Shown: positions 3,795-37,860 of the stretch, piece after piece
Layout of the letters: every line of letters begins with the position of its first letter
Numbering within the stretch: the first letter of the stretch is position 1
NCBI GenBank assembly: GCA_003210755.1
Contig: QCUL01000004.1
Span: 1 to 64,000 of the forward strand
Direction: 5' to 3'
DNA length: 64,000 nt
DNA from: Synechococcus sp. AG-679-C18
GTDB taxonomy: Bacteria; Cyanobacteriota; Cyanobacteriia; PCC-6307; Cyanobiaceae
Notes under the pieces: generated by a model
Database searches by the model: none
What the model was told of the DNA's origin: nothing
The model's input: only the letters and a program-made list of their open reading frames with translations
Translations under genes and position numbers: made by a program

Positions 3795-5075
3795 ATGGAT
3801 TTTCAGCAGGGATTAATCGCCACGATTCATGACTATGGACTCGGGAAACTGGATCTCACGGACTTTCGTCGTCAGCTCAGACAACGCCCCACCGCCCTGC
3901 TGATCCCCTGCCTCATGGAGGAATTCAGCCGTCCTGCACTCGGACTGATCAAGGGTGTTCTGGCAGAACTCAGCGGCCTCCAAGAACTAGTGATTGCTCT
4001 AGCCGCTGATAACAGCGACGAGGTTGCCACAGCGGAAGCTTTCTTTTCTGGCATGCCTTTTCCTGTGAGGGTGCACTGGACGAATGGTCCCGCCGTAGCG
4101 GAACTACTGCAGTCAATGCAGACCCTTGGTCTAGATGTGACGGGGCCTCCTGGGAAAGGTTGGGCTGTTTGGCAAGGCCTTGGTGTGGCTTGCAGAAACG
4201 CTGAGATCGTCGGACTCTTCGATGCCGACATCCGCACCTTTTCATCGGCCTACCCGGAAAGAATGCTCAGACCGTTGCTGGATTCCTCACTCGGTTTGGC
4301 TTATGTGAAAGCGTTCTACAGCCGTCTTTCTCTCGAGACCCAATCTCTCCAGGGAAGAGCGACTCGCCTTTTCGTTGACCCTCTCTTAACCAGCCTGGAG
4401 CAGGTCTTGGGGCCGGTGCCTTATCTGCGCTATCTCCAATCCTTTCGCTACCCATTAGCCGGCGAGTTCGCCTTCACTAGGGATCTCGCCATGAATCTGC
4501 GAATCCCTTCTGACTGGGGACTTGAGATTGGATTGCTTTCCGAGGTTTACCGGCATGTAGCTCCGCGTCGAATCGCCCAAGTAGACCTTGGCGTGTTTGA
4601 TCACAAACACAAAACACTCGGCGATACCCCATCAGAGGGCTTACAACGCATGGCCGGTGAAATTTTTGCCACGGTGCTTCGTGGGCTTATGGAGCATGAA
4701 GGTCAAACAGTTTCTCCAGACCAAATCCCAACCCTTGAAGTTCTATTCCGACGGGTAGGGGAAGACCGAATTCAGCAGTTTGGATTGGATTCAGGAATTA
4801 ATCGTCTTCCTTACAACCGACATAGCGAAGAGCTCGCTGTTCAGAGCTTTGCAACCCTGTTGCGCCCCAAGGTTGAAGAATTAATGGCAGCACCCATAGC
4901 TCATCAGCTTCCAAGCTGGTCGAGGTTGCTGGGCTGCACCGAACGTTTGCAAACTGATCTCGCCGAAGCAGGTCAGAAACGAAGCATCGCTATTGCTCCA
5001 AGCCGAACTCCAAGAGTTCATCACCATCGCCCACTAATGGCCTGTCCACCGCGACGACCCAAGGCAGCTGCATGA
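3795..5075 (+). CDS. gpgS: Glucosyl-3-phosphoglycerate synthase (GT81)
   Basis: A retaining glycosyltransferase that joins an NDP-glucose to 3-phosphoglycerate, the first step of glucosylglycerate synthesis. The GT-A fold shows LIPCLMEEFSRPALGLIKGVL near the N-terminus, the PGKGWAVWQG segment, and the metal-binding DADI in VGLFDADIRTF. The C-terminal part (WGLEIGLLSEVYRHV) is typical of GT81. I chose the ATG at 3795 (MDFQQGLIATIHDYGLG) because family members begin this way; an in-frame ATG at 3753 would add 14 unrelated residues. It is divergent from the GH13-gpgP pair, so the operons share a very short intergenic region. The tail is short, basic and Pro-rich. Confidence 0.92.
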   Translation: MDFQQGLIATIHDYGLGKLDLTDFRRQLRQRPTALLIPCLMEEFSRPALGLIKGVLAELSGLQELVIALAADNSDEVATAEAFFSGMPFPVRVHWTNGPAVAELLQSMQTLGLDVTGPPGKGWAVWQGLGVACRNAEIVGLFDADIRTFSSAYPERMLRPLLDSSLGLAYVKAFYSRLSLETQSLQGRATRLFVDPLLTSLEQVLGPVPYLRYLQSFRYPLAGEFAFTRDLAMNLRIPSDWGLEIGLLSEVYRHVAPRRIAQVDLGVFDHKHKTLGDTPSEGLQRMAGEIFATVLRGLMEHEGQTVSPDQIPTLEVLFRRVGEDRIQQFGLDSGINRLPYNRHSEELAVQSFATLLRPKVEELMAAPIAHQLPSWSRLLGCTERLQTDLAEAGQKRSIAIAPSRTPRVHHHRPLMACPPRRPKAAA

Positions 5076-18743: not shown

Positions 18744-18788
18744 TCTGCCTGGGCAAGCCCTTAGGGACGACGCTAGGTTTTGAAAGAT

Positions 18789-18861
18789 GGGGATTTAGCT
18801 CAGCTGGTAGAGCGCTGCGATCGCACCGCAGAGGTCAGGGGTTCGAATCCCCTATTCTCCA
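18789..18861 (+). tRNA. tRNA-Ala (CGC)
   Basis: A 73-nt cloverleaf. The anticodon stem is CTGCG/CGCAG with loop ATCGCAC, giving anticodon CGC (codon GCG). The T arm is AGGGG-TTCGAAT-CCCCT and the discriminator is A. The G3-U70 wobble that identifies alanine tRNAs is present in the acceptor stem. Acceptor pair 6-67 is a U-U mismatch, so six of seven pairs form. CCA is not encoded. It sits at the left border of an AT-rich accessory stretch. Confidence 0.95.
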
Positions 18862-18877
18862 TTTACAGCCAAACAAG

Positions 18878-31789: not shown

Positions 31790-32809
31790 TTATTGATGTT
31801 GGCGCGCAGGTGTCACAGCCGTACGACGGAGTAATAATAACCAACCTCTACGCATGCGTCTGCTAGGAAGAAATTTTGCAATTGGTCTCATTTTACTCCC
31901 CCTCGGCTTATGGCTTCTCACTCCAATGAGAATGTCATATAGAAAATTAAATACATCAGACCGAGATTCAAATATCCCTAATCTTTGAGGAGACTCTCTA
32001 GCGTCTAAAAGATGCTTGGTTGCTTCATAGGCAGGCTTGTATTCAAACCAAGGAATAGAAGGCCAAAGATGATGAACAAGATGATAATTTTGTCCCATAA
32101 TCAACCAATTCATTGTTCGACCTGGATAGACACGAGCATTTTGCCAACGATTCCTGGACAGAAAGGGGCGGTGGGGCAAGTAGTCAAAAAATAATCCGAG
32201 AGTGACTCCCACCATTAGGGCAGGAGCAAACCAACAATTAAAAATGAAGGGTAAAAAATTAAATCGAATAGCAGCTGCGATGATCGTCAAGAACACCGCA
32301 CGCTCAAAGCCCCATTGCATCAATTCCCATGGCCTCCAAAGCTTGCGCTGGAAGAAGAAAAATTCGTGATAAAAAAATCTTGGAGCGATCAACCACAAGG
32401 GTCCGAAGGTACTAACAATGTGATCTGGGTCATTTTTAGGATCATTGACATTGGAATGATGCTGCAGATGCACCCTAGTAAAAACAGGAAAGCTGAATCC
32501 CAATAACAACGCAGATCCATGCCCCATTGTCTGGTTAATCCAGGGAATCGGATGAGCAGCGTTATGACAGGCATCATGAACAACAGTGCCCTCTAAATGA
32601 AGAGCCAGGAACCCACATATCAACAGCAAGGGAAGTGGCCATCCTCCGAAAAACCAGCCCCATATCGACAATCCTGCAAGGGCATAACCACCTAAGAAGA
32701 GAGCAACGGTGGGATTCCATGAGGACGGCGGATCCACAAACTCCTTTGGCACTGACCGAGGCCTGGACGCTGGTCCCACAATCTCCTGTTGTGCGAGTGC
32801 CTGAGTCAT
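31790..32809 (-). CDS. crtR: Beta-carotene hydroxylase
   Basis: A 339-aa membrane di-iron oxygenase of the fatty-acid-desaturase superfamily that hydroxylates beta-carotene to zeaxanthin. Histidine boxes are in order: HDACHNAAH, HLQHHSNVND and NYHLVHHLWPSIPW. Hydrophobic spans lie before the first box and between boxes two and three. The C-terminal 35 residues are basic (SKMRPIAKFLPSRRMRRGW) and extend past most homologues. ATG at 32809; an upstream GTG at 32812 adds only one residue. It is convergent with gatC. Zeaxanthin is the major photoprotective carotenoid of marine Synechococcus. Confidence 0.93.
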   Translation of the reverse strand: MTQALAQQEIVGPASRPRSVPKEFVDPPSSWNPTVALFLGGYALAGLSIWGWFFGGWPLPLLLICGFLALHLEGTVVHDACHNAAHPIPWINQTMGHGSALLLGFSFPVFTRVHLQHHSNVNDPKNDPDHIVSTFGPLWLIAPRFFYHEFFFFQRKLWRPWELMQWGFERAVFLTIIAAAIRFNFLPFIFNCWFAPALMVGVTLGLFFDYLPHRPFLSRNRWQNARVYPGRTMNWLIMGQNYHLVHHLWPSIPWFEYKPAYEATKHLLDARESPQRLGIFESRSDVFNFLYDILIGVRSHKPRGSKMRPIAKFLPSRRMRRGWLLLLRRTAVTPARQHQ

Positions 32810-33338
32810 CACAAAATTCTGGTGTCGCCTGCTACTAGAACCAATCTAGGAAAAGGAATGCCCATCGTGAGGCCTTGAGTTGCCTAAGCAAGACCTAAAG
32901 GCCTATGCCGGGAAAAAGATCAACATAACCTGCTTATTGCGAATAGTCCTCAACAGAAAGTTGCTATTCGCCGAATTTTGAATAAGAGTTTCAGATTTCT
33001 AGCTTCTAGCAGACGTGCTGTTTCCAGCTGTTACCTCAACTCATTCCGTCACTCAAAACCAACTTTGCGCCTGCTAACGATCTAAGCACTATTGAGGGTA
33101 GAAGAACAAAATCGCTCACATCAACTTACAGATAAATGCAATTATTGTTAACTCCGCCACATCATGCGCTTACCGATAGGCCTCACAAAGTGAAATCTTG
33201 GCCCTTTAAGCCGTGACCCTAAGCATGACCAAACTAGACAATTAAAGTGCAAGCCATTTAAGACAAGAAAGGATATCCATATCCTCATCAAGCATTGAGG
33301 CTTTTAAGACAACATCTGTTCATCATTTCTGGAAGGTT
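32810..33338. other. Non-coding stretch upstream of crtR
   Basis: About 530 bp with no convincing gene on either strand. It contains the crtR promoter region. The base composition is AT-richer than the flanks. No terminator or tRNA is recognised before the tRNA-Leu relic at 33339. Confidence 0.4.
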
Positions 33339-33404
33339 GATTGGAATTTGCTAGAAGCGCCCCGTGAGACCGGGACTCTCAAAACCGAAGTCATTGGTGC
33401 CTAA
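33339..33404 (-). pseudogene. Degenerate tRNA-Leu 3'-half copy (direct repeat of 33972-34037)
   Basis: These 66 bp align without gaps to 33972-34037, which covers the 3' half of the intact tRNA-Leu(UAG) and 17 bp past its 3' end; 51 of 66 positions match (offset exactly 633). Shared blocks include GATTGGAATT in the flank and AACCGAAGTCA in the variable arm. The T arm retains four of five pairs (GAGAG/CTCAC), but the TTC loop reads TCC and the 5' half is absent. It has the same orientation as, and lies downstream of the 3' end of, the intact gene: the layout left by integration at a tRNA 3' end. Tandem duplication with decay is the alternative. Confidence 0.8.
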
Positions 33405-33605
33405 TTCAAATCAAAACGAGGCGGCACACCTTTCATTAGATGATGCGGACAGAAATACACATTTAATACCTGAACAGCTAGTTATATCGTCTCAGCACTA
33501 CGTTGTAATAATTATTCTCAAGGGAAGATGAATGTTATTTATTTTTTCTGGTAACTAACTAACTCTGCTTCACTCTTGACCAACTCCGATACCCCCTGAC
33601 TCAAG

Positions 33606-33749
33606 ATATGGGCTTTTGTTCTACTTGGCTGCATTGGACTACTGGCTGTAGGCGTTCAGATTGTGAACACTCAACTGAGTGAAGACACTGGAGGAGTCGT
33701 TGAACGTCCTGAATCCTCCAACGCCAAGAGGTCGGAGGAGAAGAAATAA
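33606..33749 (+). CDS. Putative small membrane protein with ATA as first codon
   Basis: An open frame of 47 codons directly after a TGA and CTC-AAG reads WAFVLLGCIGLLAVGVQIVN after an initial ATA, then a polar, Lys/Glu-rich tail ending RSEEKK. It has a clear membrane-helix-plus-charged-tail design. No ATG, GTG or TTG is in frame before the helix, so it either starts at ATA (one base from ATG) or is a gene inactivated at its start. The overlapping ATG at 33608 is in another frame and soon stops. It lies between the tRNA-Leu relic and the intact tRNA-Leu. Confidence 0.45.
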   Translation: MWAFVLLGCIGLLAVGVQIVNTQLSEDTGGVVERPESSNAKRSEEKK

Positions 33750-33988
33750 TTCTATTTAGGCACCAGTGGTAACAGGAATAATCTGACTAATGGCTCTTAA
33801 CTGTCACTTTTGACGTTAAAGAGATATGCTCACTAAATTGACCAGTTCAATATCCAATGACAGTCAGTAGAGCGATTGAAGCTTGAAACGATGCCCTGCA
33901 TTGTCACCCGCTAGTCACCACAGCGAACTTGAGAGAAATCAATCAGCTCGGCTTATCAATAGCTCCTGAATGATTGGAATTAGTTCAA

Positions 33989-34070
33989 TGCCCACCGCGA
34001 GACTTGAACTCGCACAACCGAAGTCACTGGTACCTAAAACCAGCGCGTCTACCAATTCCGCCAGGTGGGC
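33989..34070 (-). tRNA. tRNA-Leu (UAG)
   Basis: An 82-nt class II tRNA. The acceptor stem GCCCACC/GGTGGGC has seven perfect pairs. The anticodon stem is CTGGT/ACCAG with loop TTTAGGT, giving anticodon UAG (codons CUN). A long variable arm (TGACTTCGGTTG) and the T arm GCGAG-TTCAAGT-CTCGC complete a leucine tRNA, with discriminator A and no encoded CCA. A decayed partial copy lies 633 bp downstream of its 3' end. Confidence 0.97.
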
Positions 34071-34128
34071 AGAAGCGAATCCTAAACATCGATCCAGAAT
34101 GGCGACAACCTCGTGACCTCATAGATCA

Positions 34129-34911
34129 ATGCTGGCCACTCTTGCTGGAGATCTGTGCTTGTTAGTGGGTCTTGCAGTTCTACTGCTGCCACTGCTAGCT
34201 ACTGAACTCAGTCGCCCCCGTGATGGTGCCTGGGGAGCCGTCGTCTTACTGCTTGGTCTTGTCCTTGTCACCAGCAGTGATCGACTTCGTGGTGCTCCCA
34301 TGCTGGGGGTGGTCTGTGCGGGTTTGCTGATCAGCCGCCTAGGAGCGGAAGCCGGCCAGGCCCGCTGGCAACAGCTCAGCGATGAGGAGCGCCAACGACT
34401 TACCTCCCGTGAACGCTGGGCCACAAGCATCCAGCAATTGACCGCGGTATTGGCCAGCCTTACAGGAGCTTCGGCGAAAGCACTCAAGAGCCTTAAACCA
34501 CCAGCCAAAACGGGAACCCACAAACTCTGGATACGACCTGAACCCCCCTCCCCGAACGCCGATGGGGATGGATCACCAGTCGAGAATTCAAATAAAGACA
34601 CCGCCACACCGGAAACACTGGACACAAACAAGGGGGCTCCGTCAACCGAAGAGACATCCAACGATGAAACGAGCAGCCCAGCCAATACGAATCAAAGTCC
34701 TAAACGGTGGGTCCGTCCGGACAAAATAGAACCACCTCTGCAAACAAGCGAATCCAGTTCAACCTCCCGCGACGGCGAGGAGATCAAGACAGAGAGCAAC
34801 AAGAGCGATGTCAGTGAGATCGAAACGACAATAGCCACCAGTAGATCGATCAGCTCAGACAGCCGTTCAGACCCTGCAACGGACTCAACTCTCAAGGGCT
34901 CGGAGCCATGA
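34129..34911 (+). CDS. ycf66: Ycf66 family membrane protein
   Basis: A 260-aa protein. Residues 1-75 hold two to three membrane segments (CLLVGLAVLLLPLLATELS, GAVVLLLGLVLVTSSD, APMLGVVCAGLLISRLG). Then comes the conserved amphipathic RWQQLSDEERQRLTSRERWA region of Ycf66. The C-terminal half is a long, acidic, Ser/Thr/Asn-rich disordered tail. Ycf66 occurs in cyanobacteria and some plastids and has no firm function. It is followed 42 bp later by ileS on the same strand. Confidence 0.8.
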   Translation: MLATLAGDLCLLVGLAVLLLPLLATELSRPRDGAWGAVVLLLGLVLVTSSDRLRGAPMLGVVCAGLLISRLGAEAGQARWQQLSDEERQRLTSRERWATSIQQLTAVLASLTGASAKALKSLKPPAKTGTHKLWIRPEPPSPNADGDGSPVENSNKDTATPETLDTNKGAPSTEETSNDETSSPANTNQSPKRWVRPDKIEPPLQTSESSSTSRDGEEIKTESNKSDVSEIETTIATSRSISSDSRSDPATDSTLKGSEP

Positions 34912-34953
34912 GCATCGGCGAAGATTGATAATTTCCTTTGCTACAGCGCCAAC

Positions 34954-37860
34954 GTGACCCAGCAGACAGGCCAGGACGCCGATAAGCGCCCGTCATACAA
35001 AGACACCCTCAACCTGCTGGAGACGGGGTTTGGCATGCGTGCCAATGCCATCCAACGTGAACCGGAACTCCAAGCTTTTTGGAGAGACAAGGGCATCGAT
35101 CTGGATCTGGGACGCAACAATCCCGGGCCCACGTTCACCCTGCATGACGGCCCCCCGTATGCCAACGGCGCATTGCACATGGGCCACGCCCTGAACAAGG
35201 TTCTTAAGGACATCATCAACAAGCACCGGCTGATGCAAGGCCGGAAGGTGCGTTTCGTACCTGGCTGGGACTGTCACGGCCTACCAATCGAGCTCAAAGT
35301 GCTCCAGGCCATGAACCAGGAGCAGCGCTTAGCGCTCACCCCGATCAAGTTGCGCAAAAAGGCTGCGGCCTACGCCCATAAGCAAGTTGCCGGCCAGATG
35401 GCCGGCTTTAAGCGCTGGGGCATCTGGGCTGACTGGGATCACCCCTATCTCACACTTCAAAAGGATTACGAAGCCGCTCAGATCGACGCCTTTGGAACGA
35501 TGGCGCTGAAAGGGCACATTTACCGAGGGCTGAAACCAGTGCACTGGAGCCCCAGTTCACGCACTGCCCTGGCCGAAGCCGAGCTGGAATATCCCGACGG
35601 ACACACCAGTCCCAGTGTCTACGTGGGATTTCCAGTTGTTGATCTACCCGAGAGCCTGCGCAGCAAGCTCAACGAGCAGGGCCTGAACGTTCCCGCAGAG
35701 AGCAACGCCCTCAGTCAGTGCTTGCAGGTTGCGATTTGGACCACGACACCTTGGACTCTCCCAGCCAACCTGGCTGTGTCGGTGAATGATCGCCTCGACT
35801 ATTGCCTTGCCGATGACGGCAACGGGAAAATTTTTATCGTGGCAGCCGATCTTTGCGATTCCATCGCCACCAAGCTTGATCGCGCCCTGCAATCCAAAGC
35901 CACCGTAAAAGGGGCAGATCTCGCTGGAATCACTTACAGCCACCCTCTGATCGAGCGCCGCAGCGCCATCGTTGTTGGTGGGGATTACATCACCACGGAA
36001 TCGGGTACAGGTTTGGTGCACACGGCGCCAGGCCATGGCGTGGATGACTTCAACACCGGGCGAAAGCATGGCTTACCCGTTCTCTGCCCAGTGGATGAAG
36101 CTGGAACCCTCACCGCGGAAGCCGGTCCATTCGAGGGCTTGAACGTGCTCAAGGATGCCAATTCCGTAATCATCGCGGCTCTCGAGAACTCCGGTTCCCT
36201 GCTTCTTCAGGAGAACTACTGCCATCGCTATCCCTACGACTGGCGCACGAAAAAGCCCACGATTTTCAGAGCGACCGAACAGTGGTTTGCCTCTGTTGAA
36301 GGCTTCCGCACTGAGGCGCTAACGGCGATTGACGGCGTGCGATGGCTCCCCGCATCTGGCCGCAATCGGATTGAATCCATGGTGTCTGAAAGAGGCGATT
36401 GGTGTATCTCCCGTCAGCGGAACTGGGGTGTCCCTATTCCGGTGTTTTATCAACGTGAAACGGGCGAGGTGCTTCTCAATGCCGAGTCCATTGCCCATGT
36501 CAAGGCGCTAATCGCTGAATACGGAGCAGATATCTGGTGGGAAAAAGACGAGGTTGATCTCCTCCCTTCCAGCCACATCGCAGAAGCACATCTCTGGCGT
36601 AAGGGCACCGACACTATGGATGTTTGGTTCGATTCCGGCTCCAGCTGGGCCGCTGTATCAAGCCAGCGCGAAGGTCTCAGCTACCCCGCAGATCTTTATC
36701 TCGAGGGGTCGGATCAGCATCGCGGCTGGTTCCAGTCCTCGTTGCTGACGTCAGTAGCAGTCAATGGCACAGCGCCCTACAAAACCGTGCTCACCCACGG
36801 TTTTGCGCTGGATGAAAAAGGCCGAAAGATGAGCAAATCACTCGGCAATGTTGTTGACCCCATGGTGATTATCGAAGGCGGCAAGAACCAAAAGCAAGAA
36901 CCTGCCTACGGAGCCGATGTGCTGCGGCTCTGGGTGAGTTCTGTGGACTACTCGGCTGACGTCCCGATCGGTGCTGGCATCCTCCGACAGCTTTCAGACG
37001 TTTATCGCAAGGTGCGCAACACCTCGCGCTATTTGCTTGGCAATCTGCATGATTTCAATCCAAGCAGTGATGCCATCGCCATTAGCGATTTGCCATTGCT
37101 CGATCGCTGGATGTTGCAGCGCACAGCAACCGTGCTCGACCAGATCAGCGAAGCATTTGAACACTATGAATTTTTCAGATTCTTCCAGTTGTTACAGAAC
37201 TTCTGCGTCGCTGATCTCTCGAACTTTTACCTCGACATTGCCAAGGACAGGCTGTATGTGAGTGCAGCATCCGATCAAAGGCGACGCAGTTGCCAAACCG
37301 TGATGGCCTTGATTATCGAACGACTCGCCGCAGCCATCGCTCCCGTGCTCTGCCACATGGCCGAGGACATCTGGCAGAACATCCCTTACCCCACAAGAAC
37401 CGACTCGGTGTTCCAAAGCGGCTGGCCCAGCGTGCCCGATAACTGGCGAGACAACAGTCTCAACGAACCCATGCAAGAGCTGCGTGAATTGCGCGCAGCA
37501 GTGAATAAAGTTCTAGAAGAGTGCCGTAGCAAGCGGCAGCTAGGCGCATCGCTTGAGGCGGCCGTCCGAATCGATGCGCGCACCCCCAAGCTCCAAGCGG
37601 CGCTTAACTGGCTCCAGGACAAAGGCGATCACGACGTGGATGGCCTCCGGGACTGGCTTTTGGTATCCCAATTGCAGCTCGGGGGAGAACCCTGGGCCGA
37701 ATTGCTTGCCAGTGATGACAGCGAGATCGCTGTCATCGAGGTTGCCCTTTCGCGAGGTGAGAAGTGTGAACGCTGCTGGCACTACGAACGCGACATCGGT
37801 CAGTACAGCGACCACCCGAACTTGTGCGGCAGGTGCGTCTCAGTACTGGCTCGACGCTGA
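34954..37860 (+). CDS. ileS: Isoleucyl-tRNA synthetase
   Basis: A 968-aa class I synthetase. The HIGH-type motif is [18 protein letters not shown] near residue 60. The CP1 editing domain contains [15 protein letters not shown] and [22 protein letters not shown] appears as [10 protein letters not shown] near residue 628. The C-terminal zinc finger is [12 protein letters not shown] with a second pair in [10 protein letters not shown]. Eubacterial type. The start is GTG at 34954; no suitable ATG is nearby. Confidence 0.98.

Follow-up and report, generated by a model that had tools for sequence, protein, structure and literature searches.

Tyrosine integrases are established to cross over in the anticodon loop of tRNA genes, the interrupted tRNA being restored by a 3' half that the element itself carries, and the 7-bp anticodon loop and its stem have been described as resembling a lambda-type core (PMC8371274). 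The Islander collection, as reported, classified 2083 of 3919 islands as anticodon-centred, recorded 3760 with 3' fragments and contained 125 tandems of two or more islands (PMC4383910). Tycheposons are described as elements of 4-200 kb whose tRNA border holds a tyrosine recombinase (PMC10872708), and for the T7-like cyanophages P-SSP7 and S-TIP37 the first half of a tRNA-Leu gene is given as the integration site (PMC8776855). Intact prophages are reported in the same source to be absent from isolates of marine Synechococcus and Prochlorococcus despite remnants of integration (PMC8776855); ordered scars are therefore an important record of what has integrated. No description of a tRNA-Leu(UAG) site adjacent to crtR was recognised in the open-licence literature.

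Here, we describe a scar at such a site. We consider it probable that the scar arose by two successive element insertions at the anticodon loop of the crtR-adjacent tRNA-Leu(UAG), which then decayed to 1.13 kb, and on this reading the locus gives an ordered history of two events at one tRNA.

The interval between tRNA-Leu(UAG) and crtR

The window, that is, the whole stretch of 64,000 nucleotides analysed, lies on contig 4 of the 2.63-Mb draft genome of Synechococcus sp. AG-679-C18. On its minus strand, the tRNA-Leu(UAG) gene (34070 to 33989) is followed by a gene for a crtR-like carotenoid hydroxylase (32812-31790). Beyond the tRNA gene in the opposite direction, ileS is encoded on the plus strand from 34954; both gene names were read from the translations. 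The other tRNA gene of the window is a tRNA-Ala with anticodon CGC (18788-18862, plus strand). From the intact tRNA gene towards crtR, the locus contained the following features:

33989-34070, minus strand: intact tRNA-Leu(UAG), the attachment gene (Rfam, 54.4 bits; ARAGORN bounds 33988-34071), whose 3' half would have arrived with the second element
33971-33987, minus strand: 3' flank of the intact gene, with AATTCCAATCA at 33971-33981 (11-bp identity)
33405-33970, no strand assigned: inner insert unit, the second element by the model
33755-33768, plus strand: inverted match to the tRNA anticodon loop and stem (13/14), weak and possibly due to chance
33606-33749, plus strand: remnant of a 47-codon accessory gene, with ATA where homologues have ATG
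33355-33404, minus strand: relic 1, the relic of the sequence-only reading, a tRNA-Leu(UAG) 3' half that begins in the anticodon loop and runs to the 3' end of the gene (positions 35-84)
33338-33354, minus strand: 3' flank of relic 1, with AATTCCAATCA at 33338-33348 (11-bp identity)
32878-33337, no strand assigned: outer insert unit, the first element on the model, without a recognisable gene
32859-32877, minus strand: relic 2, the displaced host tRNA 3' end and true outer boundary (alignment of relatives, repeat, anchored resampling)
to 32899, minus strand: possible extension of relic 2 across a gap of about 8-9 nt, with the exact anticodon loop TTTAGGT
32841-32858, minus strand: conserved host flank TTCCTTTTCCTAGATTGG, directly 3' of the tRNA in close relatives

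The sequence-only reading had drawn attention to a repeat of the tRNA 3' half, and this repeat was found to be real. Ungapped alignment of 33339-33404 with 33972-34037 gave 51 identities over 66 positions, which was the best non-self match of the 66-mer on both strands of the window (runner-up, 33/66), and BLAST returned the repeat over 67 bp with an identity of 77.6% and an E-value of 6e-10. Formal alignment placed the identity clear of background, as the observed local score was 59 and resampling the insert 2000 times under a first-order Markov model gave scores of 27 at most. Relic 1 corresponded to positions 35-84 of the tRNA gene, its first base being the one before the anticodon. The similarity ended abruptly at this point, the 34 bases upstream matching the tRNA at 6 of 34 positions. 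Upon comparison with four tRNA-Leu isoacceptors (UAG, CAG, GAG and CAA), the best match of relic 1 was to UAG (35/43 aligned), and CAG (20/28), GAG (21/28) and CAA (6/6, in an alignment of six bases) were rejected as sources as they scored below UAG.

tRNA duplication is common, and relic 1 might on that account be a decayed, full second tRNA-Leu gene left by a tandem duplication. This origin is highly improbable, however, as no trace of a 5' half was present (6/34) and no second tRNA-Leu was found at the locus among 21 same-genus loci; a full, separate tRNA in relatives, which would have spoken against the proposal of a relic, was thus not encountered there. We also considered that relic 1 might be functional, for example as a tRNA-derived small RNA or as a usable attachment site. 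The 10-11 bp motif in its flank is identical to that of the intact gene even though the neighbouring six bases match at 2/6, which could reflect constraint. Against this, the RNA fold of relic 1 was no more stable than that of shuffled sequences (z -0.55), bases of the T-loop were altered, and scans for promoters and terminators revealed no excess, such that we find a function hardly credible. The expectation that a covariance model would score the relic as a partial tRNA-Leu failed: Rfam at E<=10 called the intact gene as the only tRNA in 32000-35500. With its threshold lowered, ARAGORN proposed at least one structure in the relic region, with poor pairing.

These comparisons supported relic 1 as a displaced 3' half of tRNA-Leu(UAG), correctly oriented and on the expected side of the gene, that is, as an integration footprint. 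Its identity, orientation and side were accordingly as first proposed, and the DNA surrounding it was absent from all of the same-genus loci recovered (21/21). The old age that had been read from the 77% identity does not follow from it, as the two copies probably stem from two different elements and their identity probably gives no clean age.

The empty site and the outer boundary of the insert

In all 21 same-genus loci recovered, tRNA-Leu(UAG) ended 49-55 bp from crtR. These loci came from a search of 24 genomes, three of which (G005, G015 and G023, all incomplete) gave none, and the count leaves out six further same-genus genomes that were met in later searches. The relatives therefore had the single uninterrupted tRNA-Leu flank that had been predicted for genomes without the insertion (21/21), and, given this empty site, the 1.13 kb in the window is a derived insertion. 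Among 80 crtR loci, the tRNA lay within 160 bp in 52, lay at 1.1-2.2 kb in 16 and gave no match at E<=1e-8 in 12. The 16 wide gaps contained no tRNA fragment at E<=0.5, and one of them (L076) held an open frame of 537 residues. The 12 loci without a match included a cut-off tRNA end (L052) and a split tRNA (L087, described below); the other ten gave no match at E<=0.5, several of them having little upstream DNA.

The close relatives also located the junction with the host. In six of them (L002-L007), the sequence abutting crtR aligned to window position 32871 and below, and the tRNA aligned to 33987 and above. The two alignments overlapped by about 15 bp in the relatives, where the overlap is the tRNA 3' end, and this stretch occurred twice in the window (33987-34001 and 32857-32871; spacing 1130, 87% identical). 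The order in the relatives was tRNA, TTCCTTTTCCTAGATTGG (or the same with one T fewer) and crtR, and in the window the same host flank followed a damaged tRNA 3' end, TCAAGGCCTCACGATGGGCA. This second copy of the tRNA 3' end, at 32859-32877, had been overlooked in the sequence-only reading and marks the outer boundary. The boundary stretch aligned to three relatives with scores of 155-157. Taken alone, the 20-nt tRNA piece of relic 2 was not significant, its score being reached in 168 of 2000 resamplings; anchored at the tRNA end, the score was reached in 0 of 400. The exact anticodon loop TTTAGGT was present at the position expected if about 8-9 nt had been deleted, and 33 of 20000 resamplings had the loop in this zone. 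The distance from relic 2 to the start of crtR was about 46 bp, which compares with the 49-55 bp between the intact tRNA and crtR in relatives.

Because the host flank adjoins relic 2, a single element of about 570 bp bounded by relic 1 was rejected. The 570 bp between the two copies had been taken as the remnant of an element; the insert instead measured about 1.13 kb (32859-33988), with relic 1 internal and the host junction at relic 2. The proposal of a past integration therefore stood, and the placement of the outer edge of the insert at relic 1 did not.

Two probable successive insertions and the content of the insert

Overall, the tRNA 3' end was present at the locus three times, always in the same orientation, with the host flank outermost and a shared non-tRNA flank at the inner two. 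The insert was absent in relatives, and relic 1 started in the anticodon loop. The shared flank, AATTCCAATCA, was located 3' of relic 1 and of the intact gene at an equal distance and was identical over 11 bp, a score reached in 16 of 5000 resamplings; the six bases between AATTCCAATCA and the tRNA end matched at 2/6 between the two copies. Relic 2 had no AATTCCAATCA and carried the host flank instead. The 17-bp 3' flank noted earlier as shared was thus a true match (11 bp identical), but it is not the host flank and seems to be an end sequence of the inserted elements, which implies that the two insertions were related.

On the reading of two insertions, each element would have carried its own tRNA 3' half, and its insertion would have rebuilt a working tRNA and pushed the earlier 3' half downstream. 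The first insertion would have displaced the 3' end of the host tRNA, still joined to the host flank, as relic 2, leaving the order tRNA, AATTCCAATC, outer body and then TGGGCATTCCTTTTCC. The second would have displaced the 3' half of the first element together with the end of that element, as relic 1, and nearly everything, the integrase included, would have been lost afterwards. A lone integration would leave one displaced 3' half, with the host flank; a second copy, with an element flank, is the expected product of another integration once the tRNA has been rebuilt. Relic 2 was the more decayed of the two, being short and probably part-deleted, and relic 1 was colinear over 50 nt, which fits an order in which the oldest displaced end is outermost and most decayed. 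As no integrase remains, we infer its action at the locus from geometry alone; that it was a tyrosine integrase, that two separate events took place and the order of these events are likewise part of what we infer.

The outer and inner units had no detectable body sequence in common (local score 20), and kinship of the two elements would therefore have to be read from the 11 bp alone. The lack of shared body sequence also favours a single integration of one element, bounded by relic 2 and the intact gene and with relic 1 as internal cargo such as a duplicated attP. Just one insertion would be required in that case, and the inverted, tRNA-core-like 14-mer at 33755 suggests a rearranged att sequence inside. 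However, a single element would have to contain another 3' half whose outside flank is the same and equally spaced, features that a tandem junction yields automatically, and arrays of tandem islands at a single tRNA are on record (125 in Islander; PMC4383910). We therefore regard a single element as unlikely. A copy of the tRNA 3' region made by replication slippage or illegitimate recombination, with unrelated DNA between and no integrase involved, would agree with the fact that no integrase is left. Three same-orientation copies downstream of the gene, a relic 1 that begins within the anticodon loop, a host boundary that in relatives falls cleanly at the tRNA end and the independent use of the same loop in Prochlorococcus all argue against it, and we consider such copying very unlikely. 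Two insertions thus remain our preferred reading.

The G+C content of the insert was 42.3%, compared with 52.2% for the window, which placed it at the 3rd percentile of 1110-bp stretches, and the rest of the genome matched it in one 21-bp and one 24-bp stretch only. With stops masked, the six frames of the insert gave no Pfam family and one PHROG at an E-value of 0.36, which is no significant match; no integrase or other mobility gene was found in the insert by these Pfam and PHROG searches of six frames. PF00589 had three matches in the genome, two of them above the cut-off and all on other contigs. The only recognisable gene in the insert was the 47-codon frame at 33606-33749, which is membrane-protein-like. 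It was present in 3 of 31 genomes of the genus, including that of the window, and was intact only in G014 and G021, where the homologues start with ATG; the window has ATA. In the window, 11 of 16 changes relative to one homologue (L031) and 12 of 19 relative to the other (L032) fell in residue-altered codons, compared with 2 of 14 between the two homologues, which suggests that the gene is decaying in the window. No tRNA was found within about 19 kb of the islands that hold the gene in G014 and G021, so there the gene is not tied to a tRNA. The variable regions with this gene in the two genomes (L173, L174 and L175) also contained Cyano-1 small RNAs (RF01701). Just beyond the block of small-gene homology, the 14-mer TTTAGGCACCAGTG at 33755-33768 is an inverted counterpart of the tRNA's anticodon loop and stem.

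Searching 300 family genomes with the insert gave matches at E<=0.01 in 16, that of the window among them: G014 and G021 matched over the small-gene block of about 190 bp (and the tRNA half), eight genomes matched in the tRNA half only, and five had weak matches of 21-38 bp. The pattern of tRNA plus flank was found in no genome among 400 of the family other than that of the window, and AATTCCAATCA adjoining GTGGGCA was absent from the 399 others. The insert had no match at E<=0.1 in 50,697 phage records, on which ground a phage origin was rejected. The relic itself matched three Marinomonas-phage records at an E-value of about 3, and the 3' half of the intact tRNA matched 44 phage records, many of them annotated tRNA genes (best E-value, 0.002). 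An att-like pattern occurred in 24 stretches of viral contigs, and in none of them did the upstream sequence convincingly resemble a tRNA-Leu 3' half (local scores 20-33). The searches of family genomes, phage records and viral contigs yielded no intact relative for either element. Pelagibacter phage HTVC041P (OR420753.1) contained at 3846-3887 an unannotated 78.6% match (E-value of about 1) to the 3' half of the window's tRNA-Leu, and this match may be an attP built on the same half of the gene.

The same loop in Prochlorococcus and comparison with known systems

In Prochlorococcus AG-409-P01 (L087; QCKM01000001.1, 3464-3949), we found that the crtR-adjacent tRNA-Leu(UAG) was split in the anticodon loop. 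The 3' half lay beside crtR at 3900-3949 (positions 35-84, 76%), the 5' half was located upstream and was weak (positions 4-28, 84%, E 0.15), and a complete, different tRNA-Leu(UAG) was present between the halves. The same split was observed in two more genomes, G215 (L185), with a 5' half covering positions 2-38 (91.9%, E 7e-12) and a 3' half covering 36-83 (87.5%, E 6e-14), and G122 (L186), with halves of 82.9% (5') and 78% (3'). Among the eight genomes in the genus of G122 and G215, a count that includes two uninformative incomplete genomes (G164 and G179), the gene was unsplit in G090, G145 and G204, where the flanks of the G215 query overlapped by 11 bp at the anticodon loop. In G193, the central tRNA was present, the 5' piece was weak and the contig ended about where the 3' half would lie.

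The replacement tRNA of AG-409-P01 (G065) matched tRNA-Leu CAG at 68/86, AAG at 67/87, GAG at 66/87 and the unsplit UAG at 62/85, and that of G215 matched tRNA-Leu(CAG) at 65/86; the best full-length match to a phage tRNA was 80%. It seems that an essential tRNA was broken by insertion and replaced by another tRNA. The same anticodon loop was hit independently in this Prochlorococcus clade, which supports the site as an integrase target. More speculatively, the loop may be a recurrent attachment site in marine picocyanobacteria for small, short-lived elements that have gone unrecognised, separate from the T7-like cyanophages with their 5' half of another tRNA-Leu and surviving only as kilobase or sub-kilobase scars; one insertion in a Prochlorococcus lineage would then have destroyed the tRNA, and its decoding role would have passed to the different tRNA-Leu(UAG) within the insert, which the element may have delivered or which may be a remoulded tRNA-Leu(CAG). 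We hold this broader proposal tentatively and think it more doubtful than not.

Like the site described for P-SSP7 and S-TIP37, which reaches about to the anticodon (PMC8776855), the site in the window is in a tRNA-Leu of marine picocyanobacteria. In P-SSP7 (NC_006882.2, L230 5760-6060), the tRNA-Leu half beside int ends in CCGGACTTAAAA, and from its loop this site reads as the 5' half of the UAA isoacceptor, whereas the window has 3' halves of UAG; S-TIP37 was compared by its description only. Integration of the P-SSP7 type was rejected because the relics expected from an attP of the first half are 5' ones and those in the window are 3' halves. Together with the Prochlorococcus case, the scar marks a tRNA-Leu distinct from that of P-SSP7 as an attachment site that deserves attention in metagenome reads.

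The scar resembles tycheposons in having a tRNA at one border, low-G+C accessory DNA and related hosts. Unlike them, it measures 1.13 kb, as against 4-200 kb, and has neither a tyrosine recombinase at the tRNA border nor a recognisable module. The link to tycheposons drawn in the sequence-only reading found no footing, as nothing in the insert identified one in six-frame Pfam and PHROG searches, and membership of the scar in this group cannot be shown.

The closest resemblance in layout is to tandem islands as defined in Islander, where a full tRNA is followed downstream by 3' fragments in the same orientation, with more than one fragment at one tRNA, and the anticodon-centred breakpoint is like that of the anticodon-loop class (PMC4383910). 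The window has the tDNA with a displaced same-orientation 3' fragment downstream of it, and relatives have the empty site (21/21). Islander asks for an integrase and a minimum of 2 kb per island (PMC4383910), and the scar has neither: no integrase gene is present in the island, and its length of about 1.13 kb falls short of 2-200 kb, so the scar is a remnant and not an intact island. As a tandem array, it has one tDNA fragment per member (relics 1 and 2) without one integrase per member. The description that fits the scar best is that of a tandem tRNA-targeted island in a decayed state, an ordinary event of a known type whose fossil form is unusually well resolved.
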